A stretch of 64,000 nt of DNA, taken from positions 6,235,001-6,299,000 of the forward strand of contig NZ_CP015136.1 in the NCBI RefSeq assembly GCF_001618865.1, read 5' to 3'. The notes beneath the pieces are model-generated. The model made no database searches, had not been told where the DNA came from, and saw only the letters and a list, made by a program, of their open reading frames with translations. How positions within the stretch are numbered: position 1 is the first letter of the stretch; each line of letters begins with the position of its first letter. The translations under genes and the position numbers were made by a program. Shown one piece after another: positions 12,985 through 37,135 of the stretch. The stretch is from Luteitalea pratensis (GTDB lineage Bacteria > Acidobacteriota > Vicinamibacteria > Vicinamibacterales > Vicinamibacteraceae).

Positions 12985-15731
<2,747 letters not shown>

Positions 15732-16101: not shown

Positions 16102-18015
16102 ATGAACCTCAGACTGAAGGTCCTGCTCGGTCCCGTCGCCGTCATCGCGATGTTCGTGGCAGTCGTGACGATGGCCTCGGTCTTGGCGAGCCGCGCCTCC
16201 CAGGAACCATCCAGTACGCCCGCCGCTGCCGCAGCCCAGACGCCTCCCGCAACAGCCGAACCTGCCCCCGCGGCAGGCGAGGCTGCGCCCAAGGCAGAGG
16301 CGCCGAGTGCGGCCCAATCCAAGCCCTACGAGGAAGTGCCGTACCGGGCCGTCCCCAGGGTCGGCAGCCGTGTCGCCATCTGGATGGTCGCGCAGCTGCA
16401 CCTGTTGTTTGCGGCGTTCGTCCTGGCCATCCCGATCTTCGCGCTCATCGTCGAGGCGATCGGATACAAGACCGGCGACCGGCGATACGACCGGCTCGCA
16501 CACGAGTTCACGAAGCTCCTGTCAGTCTCCTTCTCGCTCACGGCGACGTTCGGTGCGGCGCTGACGTTCATGCTCATCATCCTGTACCCGAAGTTCACCA
16601 ACTACATGATGAGCGTGTTCTCCCCCACCTTCCTTCCGTACGTCCTGCTCTTCTTCTTCGAAGCCTTTTTCCTCTACACGTACTACTACGGCTGGGGAAA
16701 GTTCCACCCGCTCGTGCACCTCGGCCTCGGGCTTGGCCTGAACGTCGTGGGTACGGCGATCATGTTCATCGCCAACTCCTGGCTGACGTTCATGATGTCG
16801 CCGCGCGGGGTCAACAGTACCGGGGCGGTGATCAACGTCTGGGAGGCCGTCAACAACTTCACCTGGATGCCGATCAATGTCCACCGCATGATCGCGAACG
16901 TCGCGTTCGGCGGGTCGGTCGCTGCGGCGTACGCGGCCTTCAAGTTCCTGCAGGCGGAAACCGACGAGGAGCGCGCGCACTACGACTGGATGGGCTACAT
17001 CGGCAACTTCGTCGCGATCAGTGCCTTCCTGCCGCTGCCCTTCGCCGGCTACTGGCTGGCGAAGGAAATCTACGCCTACTCGCAGACGCTCGGATTGACG
17101 ATGATGGGCGGTGCCTTCTCGTGGCTCTTCATCATCCAGGCGGTGCTGATCGGCAACCTGTTCCTCGCCGCCAACTACTACCTGTGGCTCGGCATGGGGC
17201 GGGTCGAAGGCGCGCAGGGGTTCCAGAAGGTCATCAAGTACCTGCTGGCGGTGATCGTGCTCTGCTTCATGGTCTGGGCAACGCCGCGTTCGATCATCGC
17301 GACGGTCTCCGAGATCCGGGCGATGGGTGGGTCCTCACACCCGATCCTGGGCTTCCTCGGCGTCATGTCGGCCAAGAACACGGCCGTGAACATCCTGATC
17401 CTCACGACGTTCATGAGCTTCCTGCTCTATCGCCGGACCGGCAAGGTGGCAACGGTGGCGTGGGCGAAGAAGGGGCATGCGGCGCAGCTCACGATATTCG
17501 CGGCCGCTGCACTCTTTGTCATCTTCCTCGGCGTCTACGGCTACTTCGTCGAGGCGACGGTCCGAATCAAGCTCTCGGTGCCGCAGGTCCTCTCTGTCCT
17601 CTTCGCCATGGTGTCGATCACCGCCATCGACGTGTTCCTGTTCCGCCATGCGACGAGAACGGGCGAAGTGCGATGGGGGAAGATGCCGGTGATCTCGCAG
17701 TACGTGCTGATCTTCATCGCCGTCACGTTCACGTGGCTCATGGGGCTCATGGGCTACGTGCGCTCCGGACTTCGCCAGCACTGGCACGTGTACGGCGTCA
17801 TTCGTGATCGCTCACCGGACGCCTTCACGCCGACGCTCGGCTTCGCGACGCAGGTGGTGTCGGTGACCGTGCTCCTGTTCTTCGTCCTGATCGGCTTCGT
17901 GTTCTGGATCACGAGCCTTCACGACCGGCCCGATTTCGAGGAGCGAGGCCGCGTCCGGCACGGCTCCGACGATGTCACTCCGGCGGTGTCGAGTGGCTCG
18001 TCTGCACACACGTAA
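16102..18015 (+). CDS. Orphan CydA-like (cytochrome bd oxidase subunit I-like) membrane protein
   Basis: A 637-residue protein: an N-terminal helix (10-30), an Ala/Pro-rich linker (35-75), then about 12-13 helices. Residues 95-290 align by eye with CydA: VAQLHLLFAAFVLAIP places His 100 at the heme ligand of helix 1, LLFFFEAFFLYTYYYGWGK gives the conserved Glu 187, IANSWLTFMMSP matches the ANGWMQNP region, and NVHRMIANVAFGG gives His 261 at the second heme ligand. The quinone-binding GWxxxExGRQPW motif is absent and no CydB gene accompanies it. It leads a cytochrome c-rich operon, so it may accept or donate electrons through cytochrome c rather than quinol. Whether it reduces O2 is unknown. 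Confidence 0.75.
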   Translation: MNLRLKVLLGPVAVIAMFVAVVTMASVLASRASQEPSSTPAAAAAQTPPATAEPAPAAGEAAPKAEAPSAAQSKPYEEVPYRAVPRVGSRVAIWMVAQLHLLFAAFVLAIPIFALIVEAIGYKTGDRRYDRLAHEFTKLLSVSFSLTATFGAALTFMLIILYPKFTNYMMSVFSPTFLPYVLLFFFEAFFLYTYYYGWGKFHPLVHLGLGLGLNVVGTAIMFIANSWLTFMMSPRGVNSTGAVINVWEAVNNFTWMPINVHRMIANVAFGGSVAAAYAAFKFLQAETDEERAHYDWMGYIGNFVAISAFLPLPFAGYWLAKEIYAYSQTLGLTMMGGAFSWLFIIQAVLIGNLFLAANYYLWLGMGRVEGAQGFQKVIKYLLAVIVLCFMVWATPRSIIATVSEIRAMGGSSHPILGFLGVMSAKNTAVNILILTTFMSFLLYRRTGKVATVAWAKKGHAAQLTIFAAAALFVIFLGVYGYFVEATVRIKLSVPQVLSVLFAMVSITAIDVFLFRHATRTGEVRWGKMPVISQYVLIFIAVTFTWLMGLMGYVRSGLRQHWHVYGVIRDRSPDAFTPTLGFATQVVSVTVLLFFVLIGFVFWITSLHDRPDFEERGRVRHGSDDVTPAVSSGSSAHT

Positions 18016-18030
18016 GCGGATCACAACGTC

Positions 18031-18681
18031 ATGAGGATTCCGCACATCGTCCGCATCGGCGCGCTCGTCCTCGCCACGACGGGGTTCTATACCTATGTCG
18101 GCCAGATGGTGCCCCAGAAGGAGGTACAGCCTCCCGAGGACGCAGCCATCGGCGCCGAGATGACCACCGCCGACATGGTCAAGGTGGGCCGCCAGATCAT
18201 GAGCGGCAAGGGGCTGTGCCTCACCTGTCACACGGTCGGGAAAACCGGGGCGCTGCGGTTCCCTGATCTCCAAGGCGTCGCCGTCCGGGCGAAGACCCGC
18301 GTCCAGGGCCTGAGCGACGTCGAGTACTTCGCCCAGTCACTGTATGAACCCATGGCCTTCGTCGTGCCGGGGTTCCCGCCGGCGATGCCGCCCATGAACC
18401 AGCCTCCGTTCGGCCTCACGGACCAGGAGATTCTCTGTGTGATCGCCGCCCTCCAGACGTATGGCGGCACGCCGACGGTCACGCTGCAGACGACGCACCA
18501 TTATTCCGGCAAGGGCGCGGCCGCACCAGGTGGCACGGCCGCTCCGGATGCAGGCGCCGCGCCAGCCGGGGAGCCGGCACCGGCCGAACCGAAGAAGGGC
18601 GCCCAGCTGCGACCTGGCGGGAGCCCGAAACTGGTCGCGGTCCATCAGTCGGCGCGGCTCGAGGGAGCGGTGTCCCGATGA
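18031..18681 (+). CDS. Membrane-anchored monoheme cytochrome c
   Basis: A 216-residue protein with an N-terminal membrane anchor (residues 8-26) and one heme-binding motif, CLTCH (63-67), in GKGLCLTCHTVG; the distal Met is probably in the PPMNQPPFGLTDQEI region. The C-terminal 65 residues are Ala/Pro/Gly-rich and disordered. It starts 15 bp after the CydA-like gene and its last four bases overlap the next cytochrome gene, so it is co-translated with both. It probably faces the periplasm and passes electrons to or from the bd-like subunit. Confidence 0.85.
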   Translation: MRIPHIVRIGALVLATTGFYTYVGQMVPQKEVQPPEDAAIGAEMTTADMVKVGRQIMSGKGLCLTCHTVGKTGALRFPDLQGVAVRAKTRVQGLSDVEYFAQSLYEPMAFVVPGFPPAMPPMNQPPFGLTDQEILCVIAALQTYGGTPTVTLQTTHHYSGKGAAAPGGTAAPDAGAAPAGEPAPAEPKKGAQLRPGGSPKLVAVHQSARLEGAVSR

Positions 18682-19493
18682 AGATCCTCGTCGTCGTCGC
18701 CGTGCTCGTCGTGTTCGGGGTGCTTCGCCTCCGCCGGGCAAGCCTATTGGCGTGGGCGGGTGCGTGGTGGGTAGGGCTTTACGTCCTCCTGCGGTTCGGA
18801 TTCACGGCGCCGATTCCGTCCTCAGTCGTCACGATCTACATGGGCATCGTGACGCTCGCGATCCTCGCATACGTGACATCCAGCGAGGAGCGCCGGGGCG
18901 ACGTCTCCGGCCCGCTCGTCCGCTTCATGACGGAGCGGCGGTACACACCACTCCTCGGCGCGACGATCGTCGCCATCCCCGCACTCGCGGCGGCGAACGT
19001 CTACGTGCAGATGAACGTCCCGCTGCAGCCGCCGCTGTTCTCGCGCACGGTCCATCCCGCATCGCCTTCCGAGATCACGGTGCACGACGCCAAGATCAAT
19101 CTCGATACCGCAGAGAACACCTTCCTGCACCTGGAACGATCGAACGCGGCCGAGTACCGCCAGCACGTCGAGAACGGTCGCCGGGTCTACTACCGCAACT
19201 GCGTCTTCTGCCACGGCGACAACCTGTCGGGCAACGGCATGTTCGTGCACGGGCTCGATCCGATCCCGACCAACTTCACCGACGGATCGATTGCCGGGTT
19301 GCGCGACTCGTTCCTCCTCTGGCGAATCTCCAAGGGCGGGCCTGGGCTTCCCGAGGAAGGTGGGCCGTGGGACACGGCCATGCCCGCCTGGGAGAAGATC
19401 CTGAAGGAAGAGGAGATGTGGGAGGCGATCCTCTTTCTCTACGATTTCACCGGCCAGAAGCCACGCGCCAGGGAAGCGGGTGAGCACAAATGA
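18678..19493 (+). CDS. Cytochrome c with four-helix membrane domain
   Basis: A 271-residue protein. Four hydrophobic segments (about 2-18, 22-40, 48-67, 91-110) precede a periplasmic cytochrome c domain with one CVFCH motif (175-179) in NCVFCHGDNLSGNGMF; the axial Met is likely in DTAMPAWEKIL near residue 238. The fused membrane domain is unlike simple tethered cytochromes and may pack against the CydA-like protein in place of CydB, an inference from gene order only. Its start overlaps the preceding cytochrome stop (ATGA) and its stop overlaps the next start, so the three genes are tightly coupled. Confidence 0.82.
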   Translation: MKILVVVAVLVVFGVLRLRRASLLAWAGAWWVGLYVLLRFGFTAPIPSSVVTIYMGIVTLAILAYVTSSEERRGDVSGPLVRFMTERRYTPLLGATIVAIPALAAANVYVQMNVPLQPPLFSRTVHPASPSEITVHDAKINLDTAENTFLHLERSNAAEYRQHVENGRRVYYRNCVFCHGDNLSGNGMFVHGLDPIPTNFTDGSIAGLRDSFLLWRISKGGPGLPEEGGPWDTAMPAWEKILKEEEMWEAILFLYDFTGQKPRAREAGEHK

Positions 19494-21193
19494 CCCCTCG
19501 GCTGTTCACGAGCGGATGTGCCGTGGTGCTGATCGGCGTGGTGTGGGCCATGCCGATGCGATCGGTGAAGGCGCAAGGACCTTACGTTGGCACCGACGCG
19601 CAGCGGGAGTCGGGCAAGCAGCTCTATGGCAAGTACTGCGCGCAGTGCCATGGCGACAAGGGCGACGGCGAAGGCTACGCCACGCCGCACCTGTACCCAC
19701 GGCCGCGAAACTTCACGACCGGCAAGTTCAAGGTGCGGACGACTCCGAACGGTGCGCTGCCGACGCACCAGGATCTCGTCAACATCATCAGGCGCGGCAT
19801 GCCCTATACATCGATGCCCGCCTGGCCCGACCTGACCGATCAGGAGGTCGCGAACCTCGCGTACTACATCACGACATTCTCGCCCGATTTCACCAATCCG
19901 GAGAGGGCGCCAAAGCCGGTGGAACTCCCGAGTGCGCCGGCCGCGACGAGCGCGACCATCGAGCAGGGGAAGAAGCTCTACGAAGAGACCGGCTGCACGA
20001 AGTGCCACGGCACGCTCGGTCGCGGCGACGGCGCTTCGGCACCGACGCTGAAGGACGACTTCGATCATCCGATACGTGCGGCCGACCTTACGCAGAGCTG
20101 GACGTTCCGTGGTGGAGCGACGCGCGAGGACATCTTCCGGACGATGAGCACCGGGTTCAACGGCACGCCGATGCCGGCGTTTGTCGACGGGCTGTCGCCC
20201 GAGCAGCGCTGGGCGATCACCGACTACATCGCCTCGCTGTCAGGAAGCGAGGGACCGGGCTATACGAACCTCGTCGTCGCCAAGTACGTGAAGGAACCGA
20301 TCGACATGGCCAAGGGGGCAGCGAGTTTCGCTGCCGCGCCTGTGGCCCACTTGCCGATCGTCGGGCAGATCATGGAGCCCGGCCGCGCGTTCCACCCGCC
20401 CACGACATCGCTGAGCGTGCAGGCGATCTACGACGACACGTCGATTGCGACGCTCGTGCGGTGGCACGACAGGACCGCGGAGAAGACCGGCCAGAACGGG
20501 CCGTCGCTTCCCGTGGCTCCCGAGGAGGAAGAAGAAGGCGGAGGCGCGGCCGAGGCGGCCGGCGGCAGCCCGTTCGGTGATGCGGAGGTGGCGCCAGGCG
20601 CCGCCCAGCCGGCCGAGAAGGACCCCTTTGCCGAGGCCGAGGCGCCGGCGGTGACGTCCGAGTTCTCCGACGCTGTCGCGATCCAGATCCCGTCGGAGAC
20701 ACCGGCGACGGCCCGCAAGCCCTACTTCATCTTCGGCGACGCGGAGAACTCGGTCGATCTGTGGTTCTTCGATCTGGCCCAGGCGGCCCCCGTGCAGTTC
20801 ACAGGCAAGGGAAGCGCGGACGTCGCGCCGAAGGACCCGACAGATGTGACCGGGGTCGCAAGCTACGCCAACGGAGAATGGTCGGTCATCTTCAAGCGGC
20901 CGCTTCGCCCGGCTTCGGCTGCGCCGTTCAGTCCGGGGGAGTTCCTGCCGATCGCCTTCTCGGTGTGGGACGGGTTCTCGCGCGAGCGCGGCAGCCGCCG
21001 CGGCCTCACCTTGTGGTATTCGATCTACGTCGAACCCCAGAACGTCCCGTCGGCCGTAGGTCCGATGATCAGGACGGCACTGTCCATCCTTGCCATCGAG
21101 CTGATCCTGGTCGGCTGGGTACGGTGGCGTTACGGCTCTCGTGCCCGCGGCGAGCTCGGCGATCCGAGTCGACCGGCAGCGACCCATGCGTGA
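19490..21193 (+). CDS. Diheme cytochrome c fused to an ethylbenzene-dehydrogenase-like heme b domain
   Basis: A 567-residue secreted protein anchored at its C-terminus. After a signal peptide (1-29) come two cytochrome c domains with CAQCH (50-54) and CTKCH (169-173), each followed by an axial-Met segment (TSMPAWPDL, GTPMPAFVDGL). Residues about 290-535 resemble the heme b-binding gamma-subunit domain of ethylbenzene dehydrogenase/DMSO-reductase family enzymes (ATLVRWHDRTAEKTG, SDAVAIQIPSE, NSVDLWFFDLAQ), interrupted by an acidic Glu/Ala/Gly linker (345-395). A final helix near 525-550 anchors it. It can carry three hemes. It starts in a 4-bp overlap with the previous gene. Confidence 0.8.
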   Translation: MTPRLFTSGCAVVLIGVVWAMPMRSVKAQGPYVGTDAQRESGKQLYGKYCAQCHGDKGDGEGYATPHLYPRPRNFTTGKFKVRTTPNGALPTHQDLVNIIRRGMPYTSMPAWPDLTDQEVANLAYYITTFSPDFTNPERAPKPVELPSAPAATSATIEQGKKLYEETGCTKCHGTLGRGDGASAPTLKDDFDHPIRAADLTQSWTFRGGATREDIFRTMSTGFNGTPMPAFVDGLSPEQRWAITDYIASLSGSEGPGYTNLVVAKYVKEPIDMAKGAASFAAAPVAHLPIVGQIMEPGRAFHPPTTSLSVQAIYDDTSIATLVRWHDRTAEKTGQNGPSLPVAPEEEEEGGGAAEAAGGSPFGDAEVAPGAAQPAEKDPFAEAEAPAVTSEFSDAVAIQIPSETPATARKPYFIFGDAENSVDLWFFDLAQAAPVQFTGKGSADVAPKDPTDVTGVASYANGEWSVIFKRPLRPASAAPFSPGEFLPIAFSVWDGFSRERGSRRGLTLWYSIYVEPQNVPSAVGPMIRTALSILAIELILVGWVRWRYGSRARGELGDPSRPAATHA

Positions 21194-21219
21194 GCTCTCG
21201 CGGGCTATCCGGAGGATCC

Positions 21220-23271
21220 ATGTACAAGAGCATCTACGTTCCTGTCGATAACTCGGACCACTCGAACCGCGCCGTGTCCTGTGCCATCGGGCTGGGCAAG
21301 GCGTACTCGGCGAAGCTGGTGGGGTGCCACGTCTACGCGGCGAAACTGCACGACTATCGCTTCCGGCAGATGGAATACACCCTGCCCGAGGAGTACATCG
21401 ACGAAGTGGAACTGGAGCGCCAGCGCAAGATCCACGACAGCCTGATCACGATGGGGCTCAAGCTCATCTCTGACAGCTATCTCGATGGGATGTCGCGCAC
21501 CTGTGGCGAGTCGGGCCTGGAGTTCGAGCCGCGGATGATGGACGGCAAGCATCACATCGAGATCCTCAAGGATCTCGCCGGGTCACAGCACGACCTGGTC
21601 GTGATTGGCGCGGTGGGGATCGGCCGCGCGCGCGACAGCGTGATCGGCTCGGTCTGCGAGCGCGTCGCCCGCCAATCGGACCGCGACGTCTGGGTCGTCA
21701 AGCACGTCCCCGAAGCGGGCGAGGCGGATCGGGACACGATCCTCGTCGGGCTCGACGGCAGCCCGCAGTCGTTCGGCGCGCTCATGACCGCCATCGAGCT
21801 GGCCAATACGTTCGGCAAGAAGGTCGAGGCCATCGCGGTCTACGACCCCTATCTGCACTACTCGGTCTTCAACGGCATCGTCAACGTCCTCACCGAGCAG
21901 GCGGCGAAGGTCTTCCGCTTCGAAGAGCAGAACCAGCTCCATGAGGAGATCATCGACACGGGTCTCGCGCAGATCTATCAGTCGCACCTCGAAGTGGGCG
22001 AGCGGATGGGGACCGAGGTCGGCGTCTCGATCAAGAAGACGCTCCTCGACGGCAAGCCCTTCCAGAAGATCCTCGACCACGCACGCAAGACCAATCCCTG
22101 GCTCATCGTGATGGGCCGCATCGGCGTGCACAGCCCGAAGGACGAGGCAAGCCTGGGAAGCAACGCGGAGAACGTGCTCCGCTCCGCGGTGTGCGACGTC
22201 CTCCTGTCCACACGCGTCGAGGTCCCGAGCCTGGACGTGCGCGCCGAGGAGACCATCCGCTGGACGCCCGAGGCCGAGGCGCGCATGACGCACGTGCCCG
22301 AGCAGGTCAAGGGCATTGCCAGGACCGGAGTCCTTCGCCTCGCACTCGAGAAGGGACACTCGGTGATCACGAGCGCGGTGATCGACGAAGCGATGGATCG
22401 GTTCATGCCGAAGAGCGCGTCCAACGCGACCAAGGCCCTGGCCGAGGCCGTGGCGCTCGAGCGGGCCAGGTCTGGCCCGGTGTCGATGTGCCGGGCATGC
22501 GGCGTGGCGGCCACGCAGAGCGGCGCCGTCAAGTGCACCGTGTGCGGCGCCACCGATTTCGAGGTGATCTCGCGCGAGATGATCGAGCGGATCGCCGAGG
22601 TTGAAGGCGGTCTCCAGGAGGAGACCACGTACGACGGGCGCAAGCTTCGATGGTCGGAGGACGCGAGGAAGGGCCTCTGGACGATGAAGAACGCGTACCA
22701 GCGCCGGCGTGTGAAGGCGCGCGTCGAGAAGCGTGCGCGGATGATGAAGCTCGATGCGATCACGCTCGACTTCGCCCGGCAGGTGATCGAGGAGGAGACA
22801 GGGTCACCGCTCGAGATCCAGTCCCCCTCGGGCGGCATGGCTCGAGCGCGCGCCGCCGAGCCCGCCGAGGCGACCGCGGCAGGCGAGTCCCGGCTCGTTG
22901 CACGCGACGACCGCAAGAACCCGCTGATCTCGACGTTCGACTGGACCAGCGACGCCACGCAGCGGATCTTCCGCGTGCCCGCAGGGTTCATGCGCAACAA
23001 GACCCAGGAGCGGGTCGAGGAACTGGCGCGTGAGCGTGCCGTGACGTCGATCGATCTCGCGCTCGTCGAGGCTGGCATCGAGTTCGGCAAGCAGATGATG
23101 GCGGAGATGATCGCCACCTATTCCGGGCCACCTGCTCAGGGAGCCGTGAACCCGGGAGTCGGAGCGCCGGCGCGGGAGTCGGCTGCTCCGCCAACGGTCT
23201 CTGGCGCGCCGGCTCGCGAGGCCTCGGACACCGGCGGTGGCGGCTATCTCAACGAGGTGCGATCGCGCTGA
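21220..23271 (+). CDS. Tandem universal stress protein with zinc ribbon and three PCP_red-like domains
   Basis: A 683-residue cytosolic protein. Residues 1-162 and 172-335 are two USP domains (YVPVDNSDHSNRA, then LVGLDGSPQSFGA as the ATP-loop regions). Residues 346-397 form a PCP_red domain (RWTPEAEARMTHVPEQVKGI then ARTGVLRLALEKGH), followed by a rubredoxin-like zinc ribbon (Cys 424, 427, 439, 442) and two more PCP_red-like segments at 477-528 (LRWSEDARKGLW) and 573-628 (FDWTSDATQRIFRVPAGFMR). PCP_red is otherwise the last domain of light-independent protochlorophyllide reductase subunit B. GGAGGA lies just before the ATG. A role as a tetrapyrrole or metal chaperone for the upstream cytochromes is inferred. 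Confidence 0.78.
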   Translation: MYKSIYVPVDNSDHSNRAVSCAIGLGKAYSAKLVGCHVYAAKLHDYRFRQMEYTLPEEYIDEVELERQRKIHDSLITMGLKLISDSYLDGMSRTCGESGLEFEPRMMDGKHHIEILKDLAGSQHDLVVIGAVGIGRARDSVIGSVCERVARQSDRDVWVVKHVPEAGEADRDTILVGLDGSPQSFGALMTAIELANTFGKKVEAIAVYDPYLHYSVFNGIVNVLTEQAAKVFRFEEQNQLHEEIIDTGLAQIYQSHLEVGERMGTEVGVSIKKTLLDGKPFQKILDHARKTNPWLIVMGRIGVHSPKDEASLGSNAENVLRSAVCDVLLSTRVEVPSLDVRAEETIRWTPEAEARMTHVPEQVKGIARTGVLRLALEKGHSVITSAVIDEAMDRFMPKSASNATKALAEAVALERARSGPVSMCRACGVAATQSGAVKCTVCGATDFEVISREMIERIAEVEGGLQEETTYDGRKLRWSEDARKGLWTMKNAYQRRRVKARVEKRARMMKLDAITLDFARQVIEEETGSPLEIQSPSGGMARARAAEPAEATAAGESRLVARDDRKNPLISTFDWTSDATQRIFRVPAGFMRNKTQERVEELARERAVTSIDLALVEAGIEFGKQMMAEMIATYSGPPAQGAVNPGVGAPARESAAPPTVSGAPAREASDTGGGGYLNEVRSR

Positions 23272-24269
23272 TGGCGGCGTACCGATTCTGCCGATCGGAT
23301 GACATCGGGCTGCTCACCGACGCGCTGAACCGGTGCTGGTCGCCGTACTTTCCGGACGAGCCGGCGATGACGCCGGCCACGTTCAAGCAGTCGATCCGCG
23401 ACCGCCAGGTCTGGTGCAGCAGCTGCATGGTCGCCTTCTCAGGGGCCGACCCGATTGGCGTCCTGATCGGCGCGAAGCGTGCGTCCGGTACGCTCATCCA
23501 CCGGATCGCGGTGCATCCGGATCATCGGCGGCAGGAGCACGGCCGTCACCTGCTCACGTCGCTCGGGTCCAAGCTCGCGATTCTCGGCCCGCCACGCATC
23601 GTCGCCGAAGTCCCCGAGACGCTCGACGCCGCGTGCGGGCTCTTCAGTGCCAGCGGATATGTCGAGGAAGCGCACCTGACCGACTACGTCTTGTCCGGTG
23701 AAGAGCGCGATACGGACGAACGCCGAACGCCGAACGCCGAGCGCCGAATACCGAAGGAGAAAGCGCTCTTCGTGGACGACCCCGGGGCGGGCGAGATTGC
23801 GGCCGTGGTGCAAAGCGCGGAGGCGGACCGGTATGTCATCCCTGTCACGGTCGACGACCTCACCGCGAATGGCCTGCTTGAAGAGGGGAATCCCCAAACG
23901 TGCTGGAAGCGCTCGGTCGAGACCCTCATCGCGAGGAAGGAACACGTCGCGGGTCTCGCCGTCGCCTCCGACGAGCGAATCGAGGCCTACGTCCTGTACG
24001 AGAGATGCGGAGTGGATCCCGAGCGAGGCGAGGCGAGGGGGCAGTCTTCCGGTGCCCCCGACGTGGAGGTCGTGTCGCTCCGCTCCTTGATCGAAGACGA
24101 TGGAGCCTGTCTGAGGCAACTGCTCGATCGACTCAGGGGCCAGGGGTCGTGGACGTTGCGTTTCCCGAAGGTCCACCCGGCGGAGTTCTCGCCCGGGTTC
24201 CTGGAGACGCTCGGGTTCCGTCCTGCGGGCCGTCATCTCCTCTACGCCGCACACGCGCGGTCGAACTAG
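23271..24269 (+). CDS. GNAT-family N-acetyltransferase
   Basis: A 332-residue protein starting in a one-base overlap (TGATG) with the USP gene. The first 140 residues are a GNAT domain: HRIAVHPDHRRQEHGRHLLT is the acetyl-CoA-binding motif A (usually R/QxxGxG/A; here RQEHGR), and GLFSASGYVEE is motif B. The second half (about 175-330) looks like a degenerate second acetyltransferase-like fold ending LGFRPAGRHLLY. A heptamer repeat encodes the Arg/Pro/Asn-rich linker between the halves (DERRTPNAERRIPK). Substrate unknown; the operon position suggests it modifies or supports a component of the cytochrome system. Confidence 0.75.
   Translation: MAAYRFCRSDDIGLLTDALNRCWSPYFPDEPAMTPATFKQSIRDRQVWCSSCMVAFSGADPIGVLIGAKRASGTLIHRIAVHPDHRRQEHGRHLLTSLGSKLAILGPPRIVAEVPETLDAACGLFSASGYVEEAHLTDYVLSGEERDTDERRTPNAERRIPKEKALFVDDPGAGEIAAVVQSAEADRYVIPVTVDDLTANGLLEEGNPQTCWKRSVETLIARKEHVAGLAVASDERIEAYVLYERCGVDPERGEARGQSSGAPDVEVVSLRSLIEDDGACLRQLLDRLRGQGSWTLRFPKVHPAEFSPGFLETLGFRPAGRHLLYAAHARSN
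23717..23755. repeat. Heptanucleotide tandem repeat inside the GNAT gene
   Basis: CGAACGC three times, then CGAGCGC, CGAATAC and CGAA. The 7-bp unit is not a multiple of three, so gain or loss of one copy would shift the frame. The unit recurs at 8716 and 42660. Confidence 0.8.
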
Positions 24270-24291
24270 GCATCGGCCAGCGCGTGGCGCT

Positions 24292-24318
24292 GGTAGGGCC
24301 GGCTCTCCGAGCCCGGCC
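24292..24318 (+). repeat. REP-like element, family A
   Basis: GGTAGGGCCGGCTCTCCGAG then CCCGGCC; identical over 27 bp, in opposite orientation, to 12852-12878. It sits in the 72-bp gap between the GNAT and ATPase genes, so it would be transcribed within the operon as a hairpin. Confidence 0.8.
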
Positions 24319-24341
24319 TGTTCTGTGGAGGCTACGTCGAC

Positions 24342-25205
24342 GTGAAGAGCTATCACGACATCGCCGGCGACGGAGGGTCGCGGGTCCTCGAGCAGGTGGC
24401 CGAGCAACGCGCCCGCATCAGCGACGGGCTCGCGGGCGTGCGCCATCTCGTCGCCGTAGGCTCGGGCAAGGGCGGTGTCGGCAAGAGCACGTTGACGCTG
24501 CATCTCGCTGGTGCACTGCGTGCCCGTGGCCTCCGGATTGCGATCCTCGATGCGGACTTCAACGGCCCTTCGCAGGCGCGCATGGCCGGAGTCCAGGGAG
24601 CGCTGTTCGTGCCCGGGAGGGACAGGGTCGCGCTACCGCGGACCAGCAGCGGGATCGGCGTCTTCTCGATGGGCTCGCTCGTCCCGGAGACATCTGCGCT
24701 CGAGTTCGAGAGCACAGCGCAAGGCGAGTCGCACACGTGGCGCGCCACGCGGGAGTTCGCGCTCCTCGGCGAAATCCTCGGCGCCTTCGAGTGGGGTGAG
24801 CTCGACCTGCTGATGTTCGACCTGCCACCGGGAGCGGAGCGGACCGTGCAGTACGCCGATTTCCTCGGGCCGCGGACCTCGTTCGTGCTGGTCACGATCC
24901 CGTCCGAAGTGGCCCGCGGTGTCGTCGCCCGTTCGGTGGCGGCGCTGTCGAAGGGACCCAATCGCCTCCTCGGCTACGTCGAGAACATGAGCGGCTACTA
25001 CTGCCGCGACTGCGACGCAATCAAGCCGCTCTTCGTCTCCCGGAACCAGGCCGACCTGGGAATCCCCTGTCTCGGCACCGTTCCGTTCGACCCTGAGCTG
25101 GCGCAGCACTGCGATCAGGGACTCGCGCTGGCAGACATGCCCGACACACTCGTCGGCCAGGCGCTGGACCAGATCGCGCAGCGACTCATGGAAGGTCTCG
25201 ACTGA
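24342..25205 (+). CDS. Mrp/MinD-type P-loop ATPase (ApbC/NBP35-like)
   Basis: A 287-residue deviant Walker A ATPase: GSGKGGVGKST (41-50 region), ILDADFNGPSQARMAGV for the Mrp-type Walker A'/switch, DLLMFDLPPGAERTVQ for Walker B, and a late GYVENMSGYYCRDCD segment whose CxxC resembles the cluster-binding CxxC of Mrp/NBP35 Fe-S carriers. Start: GTG at 24342. It overlaps the next gene (TGATG). Mrp proteins transiently bind and deliver [4Fe-4S] clusters, so supplying the radical SAM enzyme downstream is a reasonable inference. A MinD-like partitioning role is less likely given the CxxC and context. Confidence 0.8.
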   Translation: MKSYHDIAGDGGSRVLEQVAEQRARISDGLAGVRHLVAVGSGKGGVGKSTLTLHLAGALRARGLRIAILDADFNGPSQARMAGVQGALFVPGRDRVALPRTSSGIGVFSMGSLVPETSALEFESTAQGESHTWRATREFALLGEILGAFEWGELDLLMFDLPPGAERTVQYADFLGPRTSFVLVTIPSEVARGVVARSVAALSKGPNRLLGYVENMSGYYCRDCDAIKPLFVSRNQADLGIPCLGTVPFDPELAQHCDQGLALADMPDTLVGQALDQIAQRLMEGLD

Positions 25206-25663
25206 TGAAATTCCTCTGTGTCCCCTGCGACACGCCGATGAAGCTGCAGACCGTCGTTCCGCCCGACCGCGGCTCGCTGTCGGTCGTCTACGCGTGCCCC
25301 GAATGCGGCTACGAGATCGCGATGCTGACCAACGCGTACGAAACGCAGGTCGTGCAGTCGCTCGGCGTGCGCATCGGTCCCGACCTCGGCACTGAAGCGG
25401 CCGCAGGCACCTCCGGCTCCAGTTGCCCGTTCGCGGCGATGCTGCCCGCGACAGACGGTGCACCGGGCGTTGAAGCGCGGCCCGGACAGCCCGAACCAGC
25501 CGCCGTCCAATGGACTGCTGCGGCCGAAGCCAGGCTCGCGAACATCCCCGCGTTCGTGCGCCCGATGGCAAAGACCGGCATCGAGACCTTCGCCCGGGAG
25601 CGTGGGGTCGTGCAGGTGGACGAGACGATCCTCGACGCGGCCCGCGACTTCTTCGGGATGTGA
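25205..25663 (+). CDS. Zinc-ribbon protein with C-terminal PCP_red domain
   Basis: A 152-residue cytosolic protein. Cys 5 and 8 with Cys 31 and 34 (CVPC ... CPEC) form an N-terminal zinc ribbon or rubredoxin-like knuckle. A linker (60-100) contains one more Cys. Residues 102-151 are a clear PCP_red domain (VQWTAAAEARLANIPAFVRP, then MAKTGIETFARERGVVQVDE), closely similar to the C-terminus of the radical SAM protein next door. It starts within the stop of the ATPase gene. Function unknown; probably a small partner in cofactor handling. Confidence 0.75.
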   Translation: MKFLCVPCDTPMKLQTVVPPDRGSLSVVYACPECGYEIAMLTNAYETQVVQSLGVRIGPDLGTEAAAGTSGSSCPFAAMLPATDGAPGVEARPGQPEPAAVQWTAAAEARLANIPAFVRPMAKTGIETFARERGVVQVDETILDAARDFFGM

Positions 25664-25689
25664 CCCGCCGTAGCTTCAGCGGCGGCGGA
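25664..25689. repeat. REP-like hairpin, family C (CCCGCCGTAGC type)
   Basis: CCCGCCGTAGCTTCAGCGGC followed by GGCGG, immediately after the stop of the zinc-ribbon gene. It shares CCCGCCGTAGC with 26865-26890. Confidence 0.6.
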
Positions 25690-25714
25690 CGCGGCAAAAC
25701 CCCGGTCCACTGAC

Positions 25715-27142
25715 ATGAATACGAACTCGTTCGCCAGGCCCTACGTCGTCTCCTGGAACCTCACCTACCGGTGCAATCTCGCCTGCGAGCACTGCTACCT
25801 CGATGCCGGCGGCAAGCCGCAGGTCGAGAGCGAGAACTTCGCCGATCGCAGCGAACTCGGCACCGAGGAATGCTTCCGGGTCATCGACGAGATCGCCACG
25901 TTCGCGCCTGAATGCCTGACGATCCTGACCGGCGGCGAACCGCTCCTGCGGCGCGACATCCTCGAGATCGTCCAGCGAGCGGCGGAGCGCGAGCTGTGGG
26001 TCGTCGTCGGCACCAATGGTGTGCGGATTACGGAGAACGTGGCCCGACGGCTGGCCGCAGCCGGAGCGCGCGGGCTCTCACTCTCGCTCGATGCGCTCGA
26101 TCCCGAGCGTCACGACCGCTTCAGGAACGTGCGCGGCGCGTGGCGCAACACCGTCGAAGGCGCGGAGATCCTCAACGCGACCGGCCTTCCCTTCATCGTC
26201 CAGACGACCGCAGGTTCACACAACATCGCCGAACTCGAAGCGATTGCCGACTTCGCGCACGAGCGCCTTGCCGCGAAGGTCTGGAACCTCTACTTCCTGG
26301 TGCCGACGGGACGCGGGCAGTTCGTGTCCGACATCAGTCCCGCGCAGTACGACGAGGTGCTCGCGTCGCTCTACCGGATCCAGCGGAAATACAGCGGCCG
26401 GATGCTCGTGAACGCGAAATGCGCCCCGCACTACATCAAGACGGTGCTGCAGAATGCCGCCGCCCAGGAAGATCCGGTCGTCGGGCAAGCCGAATCAACG
26501 TCCGTATCGTCGTTGCCCGGCCTGCCGGGGATCAGGACCTACTCGGGCGGTGCCGGCGGGTGTCCGGCGGGCACGCACTACATGGGGATCCGGCCAAACG
26601 GCGATGTCACTCCGTGCCCGTACTTGCCCGTCTTCGCGGGGACGCTTCGCACCGCGAGCCTGGCGGACCTGTGGACGTCCTCGGAGCTGTTCACCGACAT
26701 CCGTCGCCGCAACTCGCTCGGCGGGCGATGCGGTGAGTGCGAGATGAATGGGCACTGCGGCGGCTGTCGAGCCCGCGCGTTCGGCATGACGGGCGATCTG
26801 ATGGCCGAGGATCCCCTCTGCACCCACACGCCTGGTACGTTCGCCGCGTCGCCTCTCCTCCTTGCCCGCCGTAGCGCTGGCGAAGGCGGGGCCGGCGGCG
26901 GACCCGCGTCTGTCGCGGGAAGACAGCGGCCCACGGTGCTCGAGTACGGCCCGGAATCGCCGTCGACTGTCGCGTGGGACGACGCAGCCACCGCACGCAT
27001 GAAGAAGGTGCCCGCGTTCGTGCGGGGGATGGTGATGAGAGCCGTCGAGGAGTCCTGCCGCAAGAGCGGCCTCGACCGCGTCACCGTCGAGGAGCTCGAG
27101 CGGATCCGTGCGCGGATGCCTACGCCGAAGATGTTCGGGTAG
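25715..27142 (+). CDS. Radical SAM/SPASM protein with C-terminal PCP_red domain (NirJ/AhbD-like)
   Basis: A 475-residue protein. YVVSWNLTYRCNLACEHCYL carries the CxxxCxxC motif (Cys 20, 24, 27) for the SAM-bound [4Fe-4S] cluster, and TGGEPLLR is the SAM-binding GGE. The C-terminal SPASM-type cysteines are visible (CPAGTHYMGIRPNGDVTPCP, then CGECEMNGHCGGC and DPLC) for one or two auxiliary clusters. The N-terminal sequence resembles the heme-modifying NirJ/AhbC/AhbD group and PqqE-like enzymes. Residues 419-475 are a PCP_red domain (AWDDAATARMKKVPAFVRGM) ending TPKMFG. An in-frame REP-like hairpin encodes part of the linker. It is the last gene of the operon; substrate unproven. Confidence 0.82.
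   Translation: MNTNSFARPYVVSWNLTYRCNLACEHCYLDAGGKPQVESENFADRSELGTEECFRVIDEIATFAPECLTILTGGEPLLRRDILEIVQRAAERELWVVVGTNGVRITENVARRLAAAGARGLSLSLDALDPERHDRFRNVRGAWRNTVEGAEILNATGLPFIVQTTAGSHNIAELEAIADFAHERLAAKVWNLYFLVPTGRGQFVSDISPAQYDEVLASLYRIQRKYSGRMLVNAKCAPHYIKTVLQNAAAQEDPVVGQAESTSVSSLPGLPGIRTYSGGAGGCPAGTHYMGIRPNGDVTPCPYLPVFAGTLRTASLADLWTSSELFTDIRRRNSLGGRCGECEMNGHCGGCRARAFGMTGDLMAEDPLCTHTPGTFAASPLLLARRSAGEGGAGGGPASVAGRQRPTVLEYGPESPSTVAWDDAATARMKKVPAFVRGMVMRAVEESCRKSGLDRVTVEELERIRARMPTPKMFG
26865..26890. repeat. REP-like hairpin, family C, inside the radical SAM gene
   Basis: CCCGCCGTAGCGCTGGCGAA then GGCGGG: a hairpin with CCCGCC/GGCGGG arms and GTAG, read in frame as ARRSAGEGG in the linker between the SPASM and PCP_red domains. 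Confidence 0.65.
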
Positions 27143-31845: not shown

Positions 31846-32643
31846 TCAGCGGAACGGATCCGGGGCGCCCTGCTCCTCGATCTGCTGCGCCAGCCACTTC
31901 TCGAATGCCTCGGGGCTCTCGACGGTGACGAATCCCCGCATCCGGGCATGACCCAGCCCACACAGCTGCGCGCAGGCGATCTCGTACTGGAACTCGGCGT
32001 TCCCGGTCCTCGCGCGCATCTCCGCGGTGGTGACGTTAGGGATGAACCAGATGGGGATCGTGAGCCCGGGGATCGCGTCCTGCTTCACGCGGAACTCGGG
32101 CACGCCGAAGCTGTGGATGACGTCCTTGCTCCTCAGCCTGACGATCACCGGCTTGTTCGCGGGCAGGTGCAGCTGGTTGAGCGTCGTGACGTCGTCCTTC
32201 GCGGCCGGGTCATCTCGATCGAGACCGAGAGGGTTCGACTGCAGATCCAGCAGCTTGAGGTCCGTACGTCCGAATTTCCCGTCGGGGCCCGGATAGTGGA
32301 TGTTCCAGGCGAACTGCTCGCCCGTGACCTGGACGACGAGCGCCTCGCTCGGTGACGGCATGCGATCGACCCGCGCAGCCCAGAGCGGGACCGAGAACGC
32401 AAACAGAAGGACCGCTTCGACGACGGCGACGGCGATCTCGAGATAACTCGATGAATGCGACTTGACGCCGGTGTAGTTGGCCACCGGGTGCTGCGAGCGC
32501 CGGAAGCGCAGCAGGCAGTAGGCGAAGAACCCGCCCCACCCGATGAACAGGGCGAACATGAAGATGTGCGTCCAGCCGATCAGGCTGTCGATTTGCCCGC
32601 CGTGAGCCGCGGCGAGCGGTGGCAGTCCGAGCCATTCAGTCAT
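31846..32643 (-). CDS. coxB: Cytochrome c oxidase subunit II
   Basis: A 265-residue subunit carrying the CuA centre that takes electrons from cytochrome c. Two membrane helices (about 23-45 and 68-92) precede a periplasmic cupredoxin domain. The CuA ligands are seen in DVIHSFGVPEF (His 177) and CAQLCGLGHARM (Cys 224, Cys 228, His 232, Met 235). QFAWNIHYPGPD contains the aromatic patch Trp for electron entry. No fused cytochrome c domain is present. It is the last gene of the cox operon rather than the first, which is unusual; its ATG overlaps the stop of the small membrane protein upstream (ATGA). Confidence 0.93.
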   Translation of the reverse strand: MTEWLGLPPLAAAHGGQIDSLIGWTHIFMFALFIGWGGFFAYCLLRFRRSQHPVANYTGVKSHSSSYLEIAVAVVEAVLLFAFSVPLWAARVDRMPSPSEALVVQVTGEQFAWNIHYPGPDGKFGRTDLKLLDLQSNPLGLDRDDPAAKDDVTTLNQLHLPANKPVIVRLRSKDVIHSFGVPEFRVKQDAIPGLTIPIWFIPNVTTAEMRARTGNAEFQYEIACAQLCGLGHARMRGFVTVESPEAFEKWLAQQIEEQGAPDPFR

Positions 32644-32927
32644 GAGGTTCTCGGGGATTTCTGCAGATCCGACCATTCCTCGTCGAGGTCGGCGTCGGCC
32701 ATGCGCCTGGCGCGATTGCGGAGATAGAGGAAGAACGCCACGAAGCTGCCCTGCACCACCAGTGTGACCGCCAGCAGCACCAGCACGCCGAGCCTGGATC
32801 CGTCGATCATCGACGTCTCCTCCGCCCCGAAACATACCGGGCACGCGAGGAGTGTCCCGCTCCCGCCCACGAGAACCGCCGCCGCGGTCGCGACGGCGCG
32901 CCTGACCGCGCGGCTCACTGCCGTCAT
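32640..32927 (-). CDS. Small membrane protein of the cox operon with a CPVCFG motif
   Basis: 95 residues. An N-terminal signal-like helix (8-28) ends at LLACPVCFGAEE, followed by a second helix (42-62) and a charged C-terminal tail. The CPxC motif just after the first helix recalls small proteins seen beside oxidase subunits in Acidobacteriota and Planctomycetes, and could bind metal or form a disulfide. It overlaps coxB by four bases and the upstream gene by four bases, so it is co-translated. Function unknown; assembly of CuA is a guess. Confidence 0.65.
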   Translation of the reverse strand: MTAVSRAVRRAVATAAAVLVGGSGTLLACPVCFGAEETSMIDGSRLGVLVLLAVTLVVQGSFVAFFLYLRNRARRMADADLDEEWSDLQKSPRTS

Positions 32928-33124
32928 CGCAGCGTCCTCGTCGTGCGCAGGAACCACGAATCGTAGGCGAGCAGGCCGAACGAGACGGCGAACGAGGCAA
33001 TGGCTGCGAGCAGGCTTCCCACGCCCTCGCCGCGCCCGTACACGCCCAGACACCAGATCCCGAACACCACGGCAAGCGCGGCGGACATGAGGATCAGGAA
33101 CGCATGGACGAGCCTGAGGTTCAT
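32924..33124 (-). CDS. Small two-helix membrane protein of the cox operon
   Basis: 66 residues with two hydrophobic helices (about 5-28 and 36-55) and a short basic C-terminus. No family recognised. It overlaps the previous gene (coxD, by one base) and the next gene (by four bases), so it is translated as part of the oxidase operon. It may be an accessory or assembly subunit. Confidence 0.6.
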   Translation of the reverse strand: MNLRLVHAFLILMSAALAVVFGIWCLGVYGRGEGVGSLLAAIASFAVSFGLLAYDSWFLRTTRTLR

Positions 33125-33459
33125 CAGTGGATCCAGAAGCCGTTGTGATGGGTGATGACGGGCAGCGCCAGCAGCGGCAGGAACATGGCTGCCGTGATCG
33201 CGAGCACCGCGTAGATCAGCTTCTTCTCAGAGATCAGGTGCATGAAATAGCAGGCCACCAGCGATCCCTTGATCGTCGCGACCAGGACCGCCACGGTAAT
33301 GGCCATCGCCGTCGGCAGGTGCAGGTAGGAGATCGCCACGGTGATGAGCGTCAACGCCATCAGCGCGACGAACACGGTGATGTAGATCCGGACCTGCTTG
33401 TCGATGTCTGCGGCGTGGTGCATGCCTGCGTGGTCGAGAGACGAGTGGTCGCTGGTCAT
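33124..33459 (-). CDS. coxD: Cytochrome c oxidase subunit IV (COX4_pro type)
   Basis: 111 residues with a His-rich N-terminus and three helices. IYITVFVALMALTLITVAIS and VAVLVATIKGSLVACYFMHL are the conserved first and second helices of bacterial subunit IV (the KxxLVAxYFMHL motif is diagnostic). It lies 9 bp after coxC in the standard order coxA-coxC-coxD. It stabilises the oxidase and is not catalytic. Confidence 0.88.
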   Translation of the reverse strand: MTSDHSSLDHAGMHHAADIDKQVRIYITVFVALMALTLITVAISYLHLPTAMAITVAVLVATIKGSLVACYFMHLISEKKLIYAVLAITAAMFLPLLALPVITHHNGFWIH

Positions 33460-33468
33460 GGGATGCGC

Positions 33469-34059
33469 CTACAGCAGATACAGCGTCGGGAAGAGGAAGA
33501 TCCAGACGAGATCCACGAAGTGCCAGAAGAGGCCGGAGTTCTCGACGCGATTGGTGAACCACACCGGGTTCGTCTTCCACAGCTTCGCGCCGGGCCCGAG
33601 CAGATAGGCGTTGACCGCCATGCCGCCGAGCACGTGGAGCATATGCAGGCCGGTCAGCGTGAAGTAGATGGCGAGGAAGTTGTTGGTACGCGGAAAGAGC
33701 CCGTCGTGGAACTTGTGGCTGTATTCGAAGTACTTGACGACGAGGAAGACGCACCCCAGCAGGATCGTCACCGCCATGTAGATGCGGAAGGTGCTGAAGC
33801 GCTGGCGCTCCAGCGACGCCCAGGCCATCACCATGGTGACCGAGGAACTGATCAGGACGATGGTGTTGAACGTGGCGAGCGGCACGTTCAGGATCGTGTC
33901 ACCACGCGGCCAGGTCTGCGCGCCGGTGCGGATCAGGATGTAGCTCGCAAACAGGGCACCGAACAGCATGACCTCCGACGCGAGGAACAGCCAGATGCCG
34001 ATCTTGCCGTTGGTGAGGCCGGTGTCGCGGCGGACCTCTACGGTGTAGGGGATTTCCAT
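33469..34059 (-). CDS. coxC: Cytochrome c oxidase subunit III
   Basis: 196 residues with five helices, the short form of subunit III. KIGIWLFLASEVMLFGALFA opens the first helix with the conserved Glu, ANTFNTIVLISSSVTM-like sequence forms the second, and the last reads FWHFVDLVWIFLFPTLYLL, the hallmark subunit III ending. The start at 34059 (MEIPYTVEV) follows coxA by 5 bp; a longer reading of the frame lies inside coxA and is not real. Confidence 0.92.
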   Translation of the reverse strand: MEIPYTVEVRRDTGLTNGKIGIWLFLASEVMLFGALFASYILIRTGAQTWPRGDTILNVPLATFNTIVLISSSVTMVMAWASLERQRFSTFRIYMAVTILLGCVFLVVKYFEYSHKFHDGLFPRTNNFLAIYFTLTGLHMLHVLGGMAVNAYLLGPGAKLWKTNPVWFTNRVENSGLFWHFVDLVWIFLFPTLYLL

Positions 34060-34064
34060 CGCGA

Positions 34065-35828
34065 TCAGGCCTCGTGCTGCGGGGAGAAGTCCTTCGCCGC
34101 GCCGGGAACGCTGTACTCGTACGGTCCACGGTGGACGTGCGGCTCCTCCAGGAAATTGCCGTGCGGCGGCGGCGATGGAGCAGCCCACTCGAGCGTCGTG
34201 GCGTCCCACGGGTTCGCGCCGGTCTTCTCGCCGTGCCGGATGCTCCAGAAGAAATTGAAGATGAACGGAAGCTGGAAGAGCATCAGGATCCATGCCCCCC
34301 AGGACGAGACGACGTTCAGGTGGAGCACCGGCCGCGCGAACTCGTAGGCCTCGCCGCCGTCGAACAGGCGCCGCGACACGCCGGCCAGCCCCATCATGAA
34401 CATCGGCATGAAGATCACGTTCATGCAGACGATCGAGCCGGCAAAGTGGATCTTGCCCAGCGTCTCGCTCATCTTCCTCCCGGTGGCTTTCGGAAACCAG
34501 TAGTAGACCCCCGCGAAAAGGGCGAAGATCGTTCCGGGAGCGACCACGTAGTGGAAGTGGCCGATGACGTAGTAGGTGTCGTGCAGCGGAATGTCGGAGA
34601 CGTTCAGGCCGAGCGGAAGCCCGGTGAGCCCGCCGATGCCGAACATCGGCAGGAAGCCGAGCGCGAAGAGCATCGGCGTGTTGAAGCGGATCGCCCCGCC
34701 CCAGAGCGAGATGATCAGCGCCGTCAGGATCACGACCGACGGGATCGAGATGATCATCGTGGTCGTCTGGAAGAACGCGGCCATCGCCGTGCCCATGCCG
34801 GTCATGAACATGTGGTGCGCCCAGACGATGAACGACATGAAGCCGAGGAACACCAGCGAATAGACCATCGAGCGATAGCCCCACAGCGGCTTGCGCGTGT
34901 TGTTCGCGACGATCTCGGCGACGATGCCCATGGCGGGCAGGATCAGGACGTAGACCTCCGGGTGCGCCAGGAACCAGAACAGGTGCTGCCACAGGAGCGG
35001 GTTGCCTCCACCCGCCACCTGGACGACCTGGCCGCTCACGACCAGCCCGCTCGGCAGGAAGAAGCTCGTGCCAGCCACCCGATCCATGAACTGCATCACC
35101 GCGGCGGCCTCGAGCGGCGGGAAGGCCAGGAGCAGGAGAAAGGCCGTGACAAACTGCGTCCACACGAAGAAGGGGAACCGCATGAAGGTGAGTCCCTTCG
35201 CGCGGAGCTGGATCGTGGTGGTGATGAAGTTCACCGCGCCGAGCAGCGACGAGGTGATGAGGAAGAGCATCCCGAGCAGCCACACCGTCTGGCCCGTGCC
35301 CGCCAGGACCGAGAGCGGCGCGTAGGAGGTCCACCCGGACTGCGCGGCGCCGCCAGGTACGAGGAAGCTGGCAAGCATCGTCATGCCGCCGAGGAAGAAC
35401 AGCCAGTAGCTCGCCATGTTGAGGCGCGGGAACGCCATGTCCGGGGCGCCAATCTGCAGTGGCAGGACGAAGTTGCCGAACCCACCGACGGCGAGCGGCA
35501 CCACGCCGAGAAACACCATGATGGTGCCGTGCATCGCCCCGAGCTCGTTGTAGAACTCGGGAAGCATCGTCCCGCCCGGCATGCGCGCCTCGCCGAAGAG
35601 GCCGCCGATCACCGGCAGCGCCGCGCCCGGGTAGGCGAGCTGCCAGCGCATCAGCATCATCAGCGAGAAGCCGAAGAGCAGGAACAGCAGCCCGGTGATG
35701 GCGTACTGGATTCCGATGACCTTGTGGTCGACCGAGAACACGTACGCGCGCCAGAAGCCCAACGTCTCGTGATGGACTTCGTGCGCGCCGTGCGACTTCG
35801 GCGCGGCGACAACTACTGTCTCGCTCAT
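34065..35828 (-). CDS. coxA: Cytochrome c oxidase subunit I
   Basis: A 587-residue subunit with 12 helices that binds heme a and the heme a3-CuB site reducing O2. GAMHGTIMVFLGVVPL carries the low-spin heme His. FWFLAHPEVYVLILPAMGIV holds the CuB His and the crosslinked Tyr, with the HPEVY Glu of A-type K/D-channel oxidases. WAHHMFMTGMG gives the two further CuB His, and DTYYVIGHFHYV the high-spin and low-spin heme His pair. An ATG at 35828 (MSETVVVAA) fits; the upstream frame is non-conserved. It is the second gene of the operon, 16 bp after the cupredoxin-like gene. Confidence 0.95.
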   Translation of the reverse strand: MSETVVVAAPKSHGAHEVHHETLGFWRAYVFSVDHKVIGIQYAITGLLFLLFGFSLMMLMRWQLAYPGAALPVIGGLFGEARMPGGTMLPEFYNELGAMHGTIMVFLGVVPLAVGGFGNFVLPLQIGAPDMAFPRLNMASYWLFFLGGMTMLASFLVPGGAAQSGWTSYAPLSVLAGTGQTVWLLGMLFLITSSLLGAVNFITTTIQLRAKGLTFMRFPFFVWTQFVTAFLLLLAFPPLEAAAVMQFMDRVAGTSFFLPSGLVVSGQVVQVAGGGNPLLWQHLFWFLAHPEVYVLILPAMGIVAEIVANNTRKPLWGYRSMVYSLVFLGFMSFIVWAHHMFMTGMGTAMAAFFQTTTMIISIPSVVILTALIISLWGGAIRFNTPMLFALGFLPMFGIGGLTGLPLGLNVSDIPLHDTYYVIGHFHYVVAPGTIFALFAGVYYWFPKATGRKMSETLGKIHFAGSIVCMNVIFMPMFMMGLAGVSRRLFDGGEAYEFARPVLHLNVVSSWGAWILMLFQLPFIFNFFWSIRHGEKTGANPWDATTLEWAAPSPPPHGNFLEEPHVHRGPYEYSVPGAAKDFSPQHEA

Positions 35829-35844
35829 GCGGCTGGTCTCTCGG

Positions 35845-37113: not shown

Positions 37114-37135
37114 GGGTCACCGGTCGCGCGAGCAC

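Follow-up and report, generated by a model that had tools for sequence, protein, structure and literature searches.

A CydA-like respiratory operon of Luteitalea pratensis and its conserved PCP_red cassette, a candidate for heme modification or delivery

Nitrospira, which are central to nitrification, are thought to respire via bd-like enzymes of the family considered here, and their OR-N bd-like subunits are regarded as their principal terminal oxidase for cytochrome c; OR-N5 has been reported to be linked to alternative complex III, and the oxygen affinity of the Nitrospira bd-like enzymes is still unknown (PMC12342949, PMC10579370). In heme synthesis, the last step of the coproporphyrin pathway (coproheme decarboxylation) falls to AhbD or to HemQ, depending on the organism; NirJ, which is related to AhbC and AhbD, replaces propionates (PMC7242693). 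In this study, we have analysed a 64,000-nucleotide stretch of the Luteitalea pratensis genome (the window), in which nine plus-strand genes (16102-27142) encode a CydA-like subunit of the cytochrome bd superfamily, three cytochromes c and a set of accessory proteins, three of which carry PCP_red domains (PF08369). Our investigations demonstrate that genes for PCP_red proteins accompany this CydA type in many phyla, a conserved association seen both in physical linkage and at the level of whole genomes. Based on our results, we favour, with a probability of roughly 0.58, the reading that the operon encodes an OR-N-like bd-type complex together with a dedicated maturation cassette, which probably modifies or delivers a heme.

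The operon and its PCP_red domains

Using Pfam and NCBIfam (TIGR) profiles on the nine proteins, we assigned the genes as follows, in their order on the chromosome:

16102-18015 (+): CydA-like bd-superfamily subunit, 637 aa (PF01654, 90 bits; AlphaFold; Foldseek; conservation)
18031-18681 (+): cytochrome c with one CxxCH, 216 aa (PF00034, 26 bits; motif)
18678-19493 (+): membrane cytochrome c with one CxxCH, 271 aa (PF13442, 33 bits; motif)
19490-21193 (+): di-heme cytochrome c fused to EB_dh (heme b gamma-subunit-like), 567 aa (PF00034, 93 bits; PF09459, 66 bits; TIGR03477, 76 bits)
21220-23271 (+): two USP domains, a zinc ribbon and three PCP_red segments, 683 aa (PF00582, 137 bits; PF08369, 72 bits)
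23271-24269 (+): GNAT-family acetyltransferase, 332 aa (PF13508/PF00583, 32 bits)
24342-25205 (+): Mrp/NUBPL-type P-loop ATPase, 287 aa (PF10609, 175 bits)
25205-25663 (+): zinc-ribbon protein with two CxxC motifs and a C-terminal PCP_red, 152 aa (PF08369, 57 bits)
25715-27142 (+): radical SAM/SPASM protein, AhbD/NirJ2-like, with a C-terminal PCP_red, 475 aa (Radical_SAM 85, SPASM 38, PCP_red 50 bits)

The genes are separated, in order, by 15, -4, -4, 26, -1, 72, -1 and 51 bases, and the three cytochromes c together hold four CxxCH motifs (one, one and two). An earlier reading of this DNA, made from its letters alone (the sequence-only reading), had described nine consecutive, co-directional and tightly packed genes, which the spacings of -4 to 72 bases confirm, and had listed the same set of protein types, on which Pfam agrees. 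Its term "orphan" for the CydA-like protein is also borne out, as neither Pfam nor NCBIfam found a CydB-family member among the nine operon proteins.

A hidden Markov model search with PF08369 (gathering cut-off 32.5 bits) had been named beforehand as a check, and all three proteins exceeded the cut-off. In the whole host genome (7,480,314 bp, one contig) there are exactly four matches, each over the cut-off and all in this operon. The sequence-only reading had counted five PCP_red-like segments; four are individually significant, and the fifth is the degenerate middle copy in the USP protein, which emerges at a permissive threshold only, although homologues of the USP protein have weak matches at the same position. 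The segments are:

22261-22392 (+): PCP_red, USP protein copy 1, 38.5 bits, over the cut-off
about 22645-22779 (+): PCP_red-like, USP protein copy 2, degenerate, seen by hmmscan at permissive E-values only
22942-23073 (+): PCP_red, USP protein copy 3, 39.2 bits, over the cut-off
25511-25645 (+): PCP_red of the zinc-ribbon protein, over the cut-off
26975-27106 (+): PCP_red of the radical SAM protein, over the cut-off

Protochlorophyllide reductase subunit B carries a homologue of PCP_red as its C-terminal domain (structures 2xdq, 3aek and 2kru). The general rule that PCP_red marks phototrophy was rejected, since the host's sole matches lie in this operon and there are Nitrospirota genomes with up to 12. 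One Nitrospirota protein of 334 aa (L203:7216-8220) is made up for the most part of repeated PCP_red domains (153 bits over four stretches).

The CydA-like protein belongs to the cytochrome bd superfamily as a subunit I, both by homology to Cyt_bd_oxida_I (PF01654, cut-off 26.2 bits; the match covers residues 89-326 only, in the N-terminal half) and by fold, as the top Foldseek matches of its AlphaFold model (predicted local distance difference test, pLDDT, 87.5) are all cytochrome bd subunit I. For the C-terminal half with the quinol loop there is no such sequence match: the matches to Pfam and to the sequences of solved CydA proteins stop near residue 326. Across 72 homologues, H100, H206, H261, H562, M335, M422, M547, M550 and E187 are invariant, and H100 and H261 appear to correspond to the E. 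coli ligands H19 and H186 (aligned by eye). At four loci (L108, L128, L151 and L156) two divergent CydA-cytochrome modules stand side by side, which suggests CydA/CydA' heterodimeric complexes in some lineages.

Association of this CydA type with PCP_red genes

The association was surveyed in 149 Acidobacteriota genomes (taking at least 298 bits as a true CydA orthologue), in 118 Nitrospirota genomes (homologues at E <= 1e-30) and in a random draw of Myxococcota. In Acidobacteriota, PCP_red occurs in all 11 genomes with the CydA orthologue and in 3 of the 138 without it. Because PCP_red is rare in this phylum (14 of 149 genomes) and 11 of these 14 are the genomes with this CydA, chance is excluded. 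Two of the three exceptions are genomes of 3.7 Mb on two contigs, whereas the third (G028) holds only a 91-aa frame (L073:5987-6262) that resembles the C-terminal end of the radical SAM-PCP_red protein; this genome belongs to the same order, lacks the CydA gene, and the fragment is possibly a relic of loss. The figures are 39/39 with the CydA type against 23/79 without it in Nitrospirota, and 8/8 (one of the eight weak on both sides) against 17/276 in Myxococcota. Pooled over the random draws of the three phyla, 58 of 58 genomes with the CydA type have PCP_red, against 43 of 493 without. Fisher tests are extreme in each phylum, but they take no account of relatedness, and each draw is centred on a genome that is itself a positive.

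When the CydA alignment was run against GTDB genome contigs, 80 loci were obtained, and their labels are Acidobacteriota, Bacteroidota/Rhodothermales, Calditrichia, Fibrobacteres, Gemmatimonadota, NC10/Rokubacteria, Nitrospinota, Nitrospirae, Deltaproteobacteria, Myxococcota, Scalindua and others. PCP_red genes lie in the fetched flanks of 52 of them, downstream of CydA in Acidobacteriota and Bacteroidota and upstream in Gemmatimonadota and NC10; such differing gene orders argue against one inherited block. Many of the remaining 28 loci sit on short or truncated contigs. Whole genomes were searched for 18 of these, and also for L108, whose flank already has one PCP_red gene, and PCP_red exceeded the cut-off in 19 of 19. 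The idea that loci without nearby PCP_red lack the system is thereby rejected for PCP_red. Had CydA/cytochrome operons routinely lacked the accessory genes, the sequence-only reading would have failed on its own terms; this is not so. The tally is of PCP_red presence rather than of the whole cassette, and many of the surveyed genomes are metagenome assemblies, some of which may be misbinned.

The layout of the cassette varies. Several Acidobacteriota genera keep the order cydA, three cytochromes c and USP followed by GNAT, Mrp, zinc-ribbon and radical SAM, sometimes with inserted genes, such as the amidohydrolase and MFS transporter genes that stand between USP and GNAT in one lineage and are not widely conserved. 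The GNAT gene is kept in the Acidobacteriota-type cassette and occurs at 18 of the 80 loci. One Nitrospirota genome (G247) has such genes at three sites: a tandem CydA-like pair immediately preceded by the gene for a protein with two PCP_red domains (L202), neighbouring genes for the USP-PCP_red and the radical SAM-PCP_red protein (L205), and the Mrp and zinc-ribbon-PCP_red genes (L204).

The 39 Nitrospirota genomes with CydA-like homologues often hold four copies, including tandem pairs, which match at up to 803 bits. Homology of our subunit to Nitrospirota bd-like subunits is thus found (NIDE0901 itself lay outside the comparison), and we presume that these homologues are the Nitrospira OR-N bd-like proteins. 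Upstream of CydA, 21 of the 80 loci have a gene that we take, from its domains, to be ActB-like, as reported for OR-N5.

The cassette proteins and what they may do

Best matched by AhbD (TIGR04545, 296 bits) and NirJ2 (TIGR04055, 279 bits), the radical SAM enzyme bears out the resemblance to NirJ/AhbD-type enzymes seen in the sequence-only reading as a family likeness, but not as identity: the equivalog cut-off is 500 bits for both families, and for NirJ2 the relatives tested reach at most 352. The CxxxCxxC core and the SPASM cysteines make it a radical SAM/SPASM protein, and C20/C24/C27, C236, C283, C301, C339, C342, C348, C351 and C369 are invariant in 45 sequences. Its predicted structure has a pLDDT of 83.9 and a predicted template modelling score of 0.86, and the host has no close paralogue of it (next best 60 bits). 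The host also encodes, outside the operon, an intact HemQ (191 bits) without a PCP_red match, so that ordinary heme b synthesis should do without the radical SAM enzyme. As the AhbD and NirJ2 cut-offs are missed as well, the enzyme is probably not an ordinary heme b synthase, a candidate that the intact HemQ and the AhbD score disfavour.

Of the other cassette proteins, the Mrp-type ATPase combines a P-loop ATPase domain with a C-terminal CxxC (residue 221; CxxC in 50 of 54 homologues), as Mrp/ApbC iron-sulfur (Fe-S) carriers do, and this CxxC is of the kind typical of such carriers; in NCBIfam the protein falls under the MrpORP and ApbC equivalog cut-offs. The two CxxC motifs of the zinc-ribbon-PCP_red protein are found in 52 of 54 homologues, and the zinc ribbon of the USP protein (C424/C427/C439/C442) is invariant across seven aligned homologues.

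Two observations in other genomes point to tetrapyrroles. Two Nitrospirota genomes (2.6 and 1.4 Mb) encode a protein that joins PCP_red to a chlorite-dismutase/HemQ-type domain (PF06778, 66 and 59 bits):

L207:5083-6117 and L208:4240-5256: PCP_red-HemQ/Cld-like fusion

Since AhbD and HemQ are alternatives for one step, PCP_red is joined to relatives of both. About ten further Nitrospirota genomes have a single PCP_red match in a frame of length similar to this fusion. Two related genomes (L210/L211) have a protoporphyrinogen-oxidase-like gene (in L211, TIGR00562, 304 bits, cut-off 97.85) after the genes for the USP-PCP_red and the radical SAM-PCP_red protein, and in L211 the CydA operon immediately adjoins this cluster. 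The fusion and this neighbour support the tetrapyrrole role that the sequence-only reading had put forward.

Taken together, the CydA-like core and the four-heme cytochrome c relay would form an OR-N-like bd-type respiratory complex, whose electron donor is probably cytochrome c or alternative complex III and not quinol. That the cassette serves the dedicated maturation of this complex is, in our judgement, highly probable. PCP_red would act as a small tetrapyrrole-handling module, a role we regard as likely. The radical SAM-PCP_red enzyme may alter the side chains, most likely the propionates, of a heme or porphyrin precursor, and for such chemistry on tetrapyrrole side chains we see an even chance. 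The zinc-ribbon-PCP_red and USP-PCP_red proteins would hold or pass on the altered tetrapyrrole, the Mrp-type ATPase would supply or repair Fe-S clusters, and the CydA-like subunit would in the end receive a non-standard heme.

Several points weigh against this proposal. The radical SAM protein is well under every NCBIfam equivalog cut-off, that of AhbD heme b synthase included (296 of 500 bits); its closest solved fold is the peptide-modifying PqqE; and the HemQ-like fusion seems, by eye, to have lost the usual heme-ligand histidine. In addition, the Fisher p-values are inflated, since genomes within a phylum are not independent, and PCP_red is present in 43 surveyed genomes without this CydA, in some as BchB-type or HemQ-like proteins.

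One could ask whether the cassette modifies a protein and not a heme, with the SPASM enzyme introducing a crosslink or another peptide modification into a subunit of the oxidase or a cytochrome, while PCP_red serves as a docking domain. The closest solved folds are indeed peptide-modifying SPASM enzymes (PqqE, SuiB and SkfB), and several SPASM peptide maturases match at 100-140 bits. However, no AhbD or NirJ structure is among the matches listed, so that little can be read from the ranking of folds; by family score, tetrapyrrole enzymes come first (AhbD 296 and NirJ2 279 bits), and PCP_red is otherwise found on protochlorophyllide reductase and a HemQ/Cld-like protein; we consider protein modification unlikely. 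Alternatively, the USP, GNAT and PCP_red-carrying proteins could be a set for heme delivery and stress response that inserts ordinary heme b, the radical SAM protein being an alternative AhbD-type heme b synthase. AhbD as the top family match and the protoporphyrinogen oxidase gene that adjoins the cassette in L210/L211 would fit this, but the host HemQ is intact, the AhbD equivalog cut-off is missed, and the presence of the cassette goes with the CydA type and not with heme b synthesis, a pathway that almost all of these genomes should need; this, too, seems to us improbable.

It could also be that the PCP_red genes and the CydA operon merely co-occur, kept together for ecological or phylogenetic reasons. 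The sampled genomes are related, and the correlation between CydA distances and radical SAM protein distances is 0.87, as shared ancestry also predicts. Nevertheless, the operon is tight and overlapping here, the linkage recurs, with varying gene order, at 52 of 80 loci, and there is no exception among the 58 genomes of three phyla, which leaves mere co-occurrence very improbable.

If the proposal of a dedicated maturation cassette is right, PCP_red gains a role outside chlorophyll synthesis, the active-site pigment of a bd-like oxidase may be a new one, and the conserved cassette, from which a modified heme or a dedicated delivery of heme would be expected, names the genes to test. The cassette may also mark functional OR-N-type complexes in genomes more cleanly than CydA homology alone. 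More tentatively, and with more doubt than belief, we suggest an undescribed heme in the OR-N bd-like oxidases, among them the enzyme presumed to be the main terminal oxidase of Nitrospira. This heme would be made by an AhbD/NirJ-like radical SAM enzyme and carried by PCP_red proteins; if true, PCP_red would be a general tetrapyrrole-handling domain well beyond chlorophyll synthesis.

Around the operon, genes for a KatG-like catalase-peroxidase and a Fur-family regulator (12985-15731, minus strand; identified by eye) lie directly upstream, and a heme-copper oxidase cluster (CtaC/D/E-like by eye; 31846-35957, minus strand) lies 5 kb downstream, so that the host has at least two oxidase types. 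Beside this cluster is a solitary C-terminal half of a HemQ/chlorite-dismutase (36795-37130, minus strand; PF06778 positions 92-187, 113 bits), possibly a decayed copy. No RNA families were found within the window.

Comparison with known systems

The closest described systems are the OR-N oxygen reductases (NIDE0901-like OR-N2, OR-N1 and OR-N5), which share with this operon a CydA-like subunit without CydB and c-type cytochromes alongside. The differences are that a search of the Luteitalea genome gives a single CydA-like copy, with the ActB homologue at another place, and that the published descriptions of OR-N oxidases make no mention of a maturation cassette (PMC12342949, PMC10579370). In a search of literature with few subscription journals, we found no earlier account of such a cassette, no paper that names PCP_red ("PCP reductase") with this meaning and none that connects bd-like oxidases to AhbD-type enzymes. 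From the canonical CydAB quinol oxidase the operon differs by having no CydB partner and a CydA-like subunit that gives no full-length CydA sequence match.

The cassette, in turn, resembles enzymes of tetrapyrrole synthesis in parts. With AhbD, NirJ and NirJ2, its best NCBIfam matches, the radical SAM enzyme shares the radical SAM and SPASM domains; it has an extra C-terminal PCP_red and sits in a respiratory oxidase operon. The coproheme decarboxylase HemQ/ChdC has a Cld/HemQ relative with an N-terminal PCP_red in some Nitrospirota (L207, L208); it is not part of this operon, and the host HemQ is the separate protein described above. Finally, with BchB/ChlB, subunit B of the light-independent protochlorophyllide reductase, the operon has in common the homologous PCP_red domain of 45-50 residues, whereas the nitrogenase-like catalytic part of that enzyme is absent here and PCP_red is carried instead by the USP, zinc-ribbon and radical SAM proteins.

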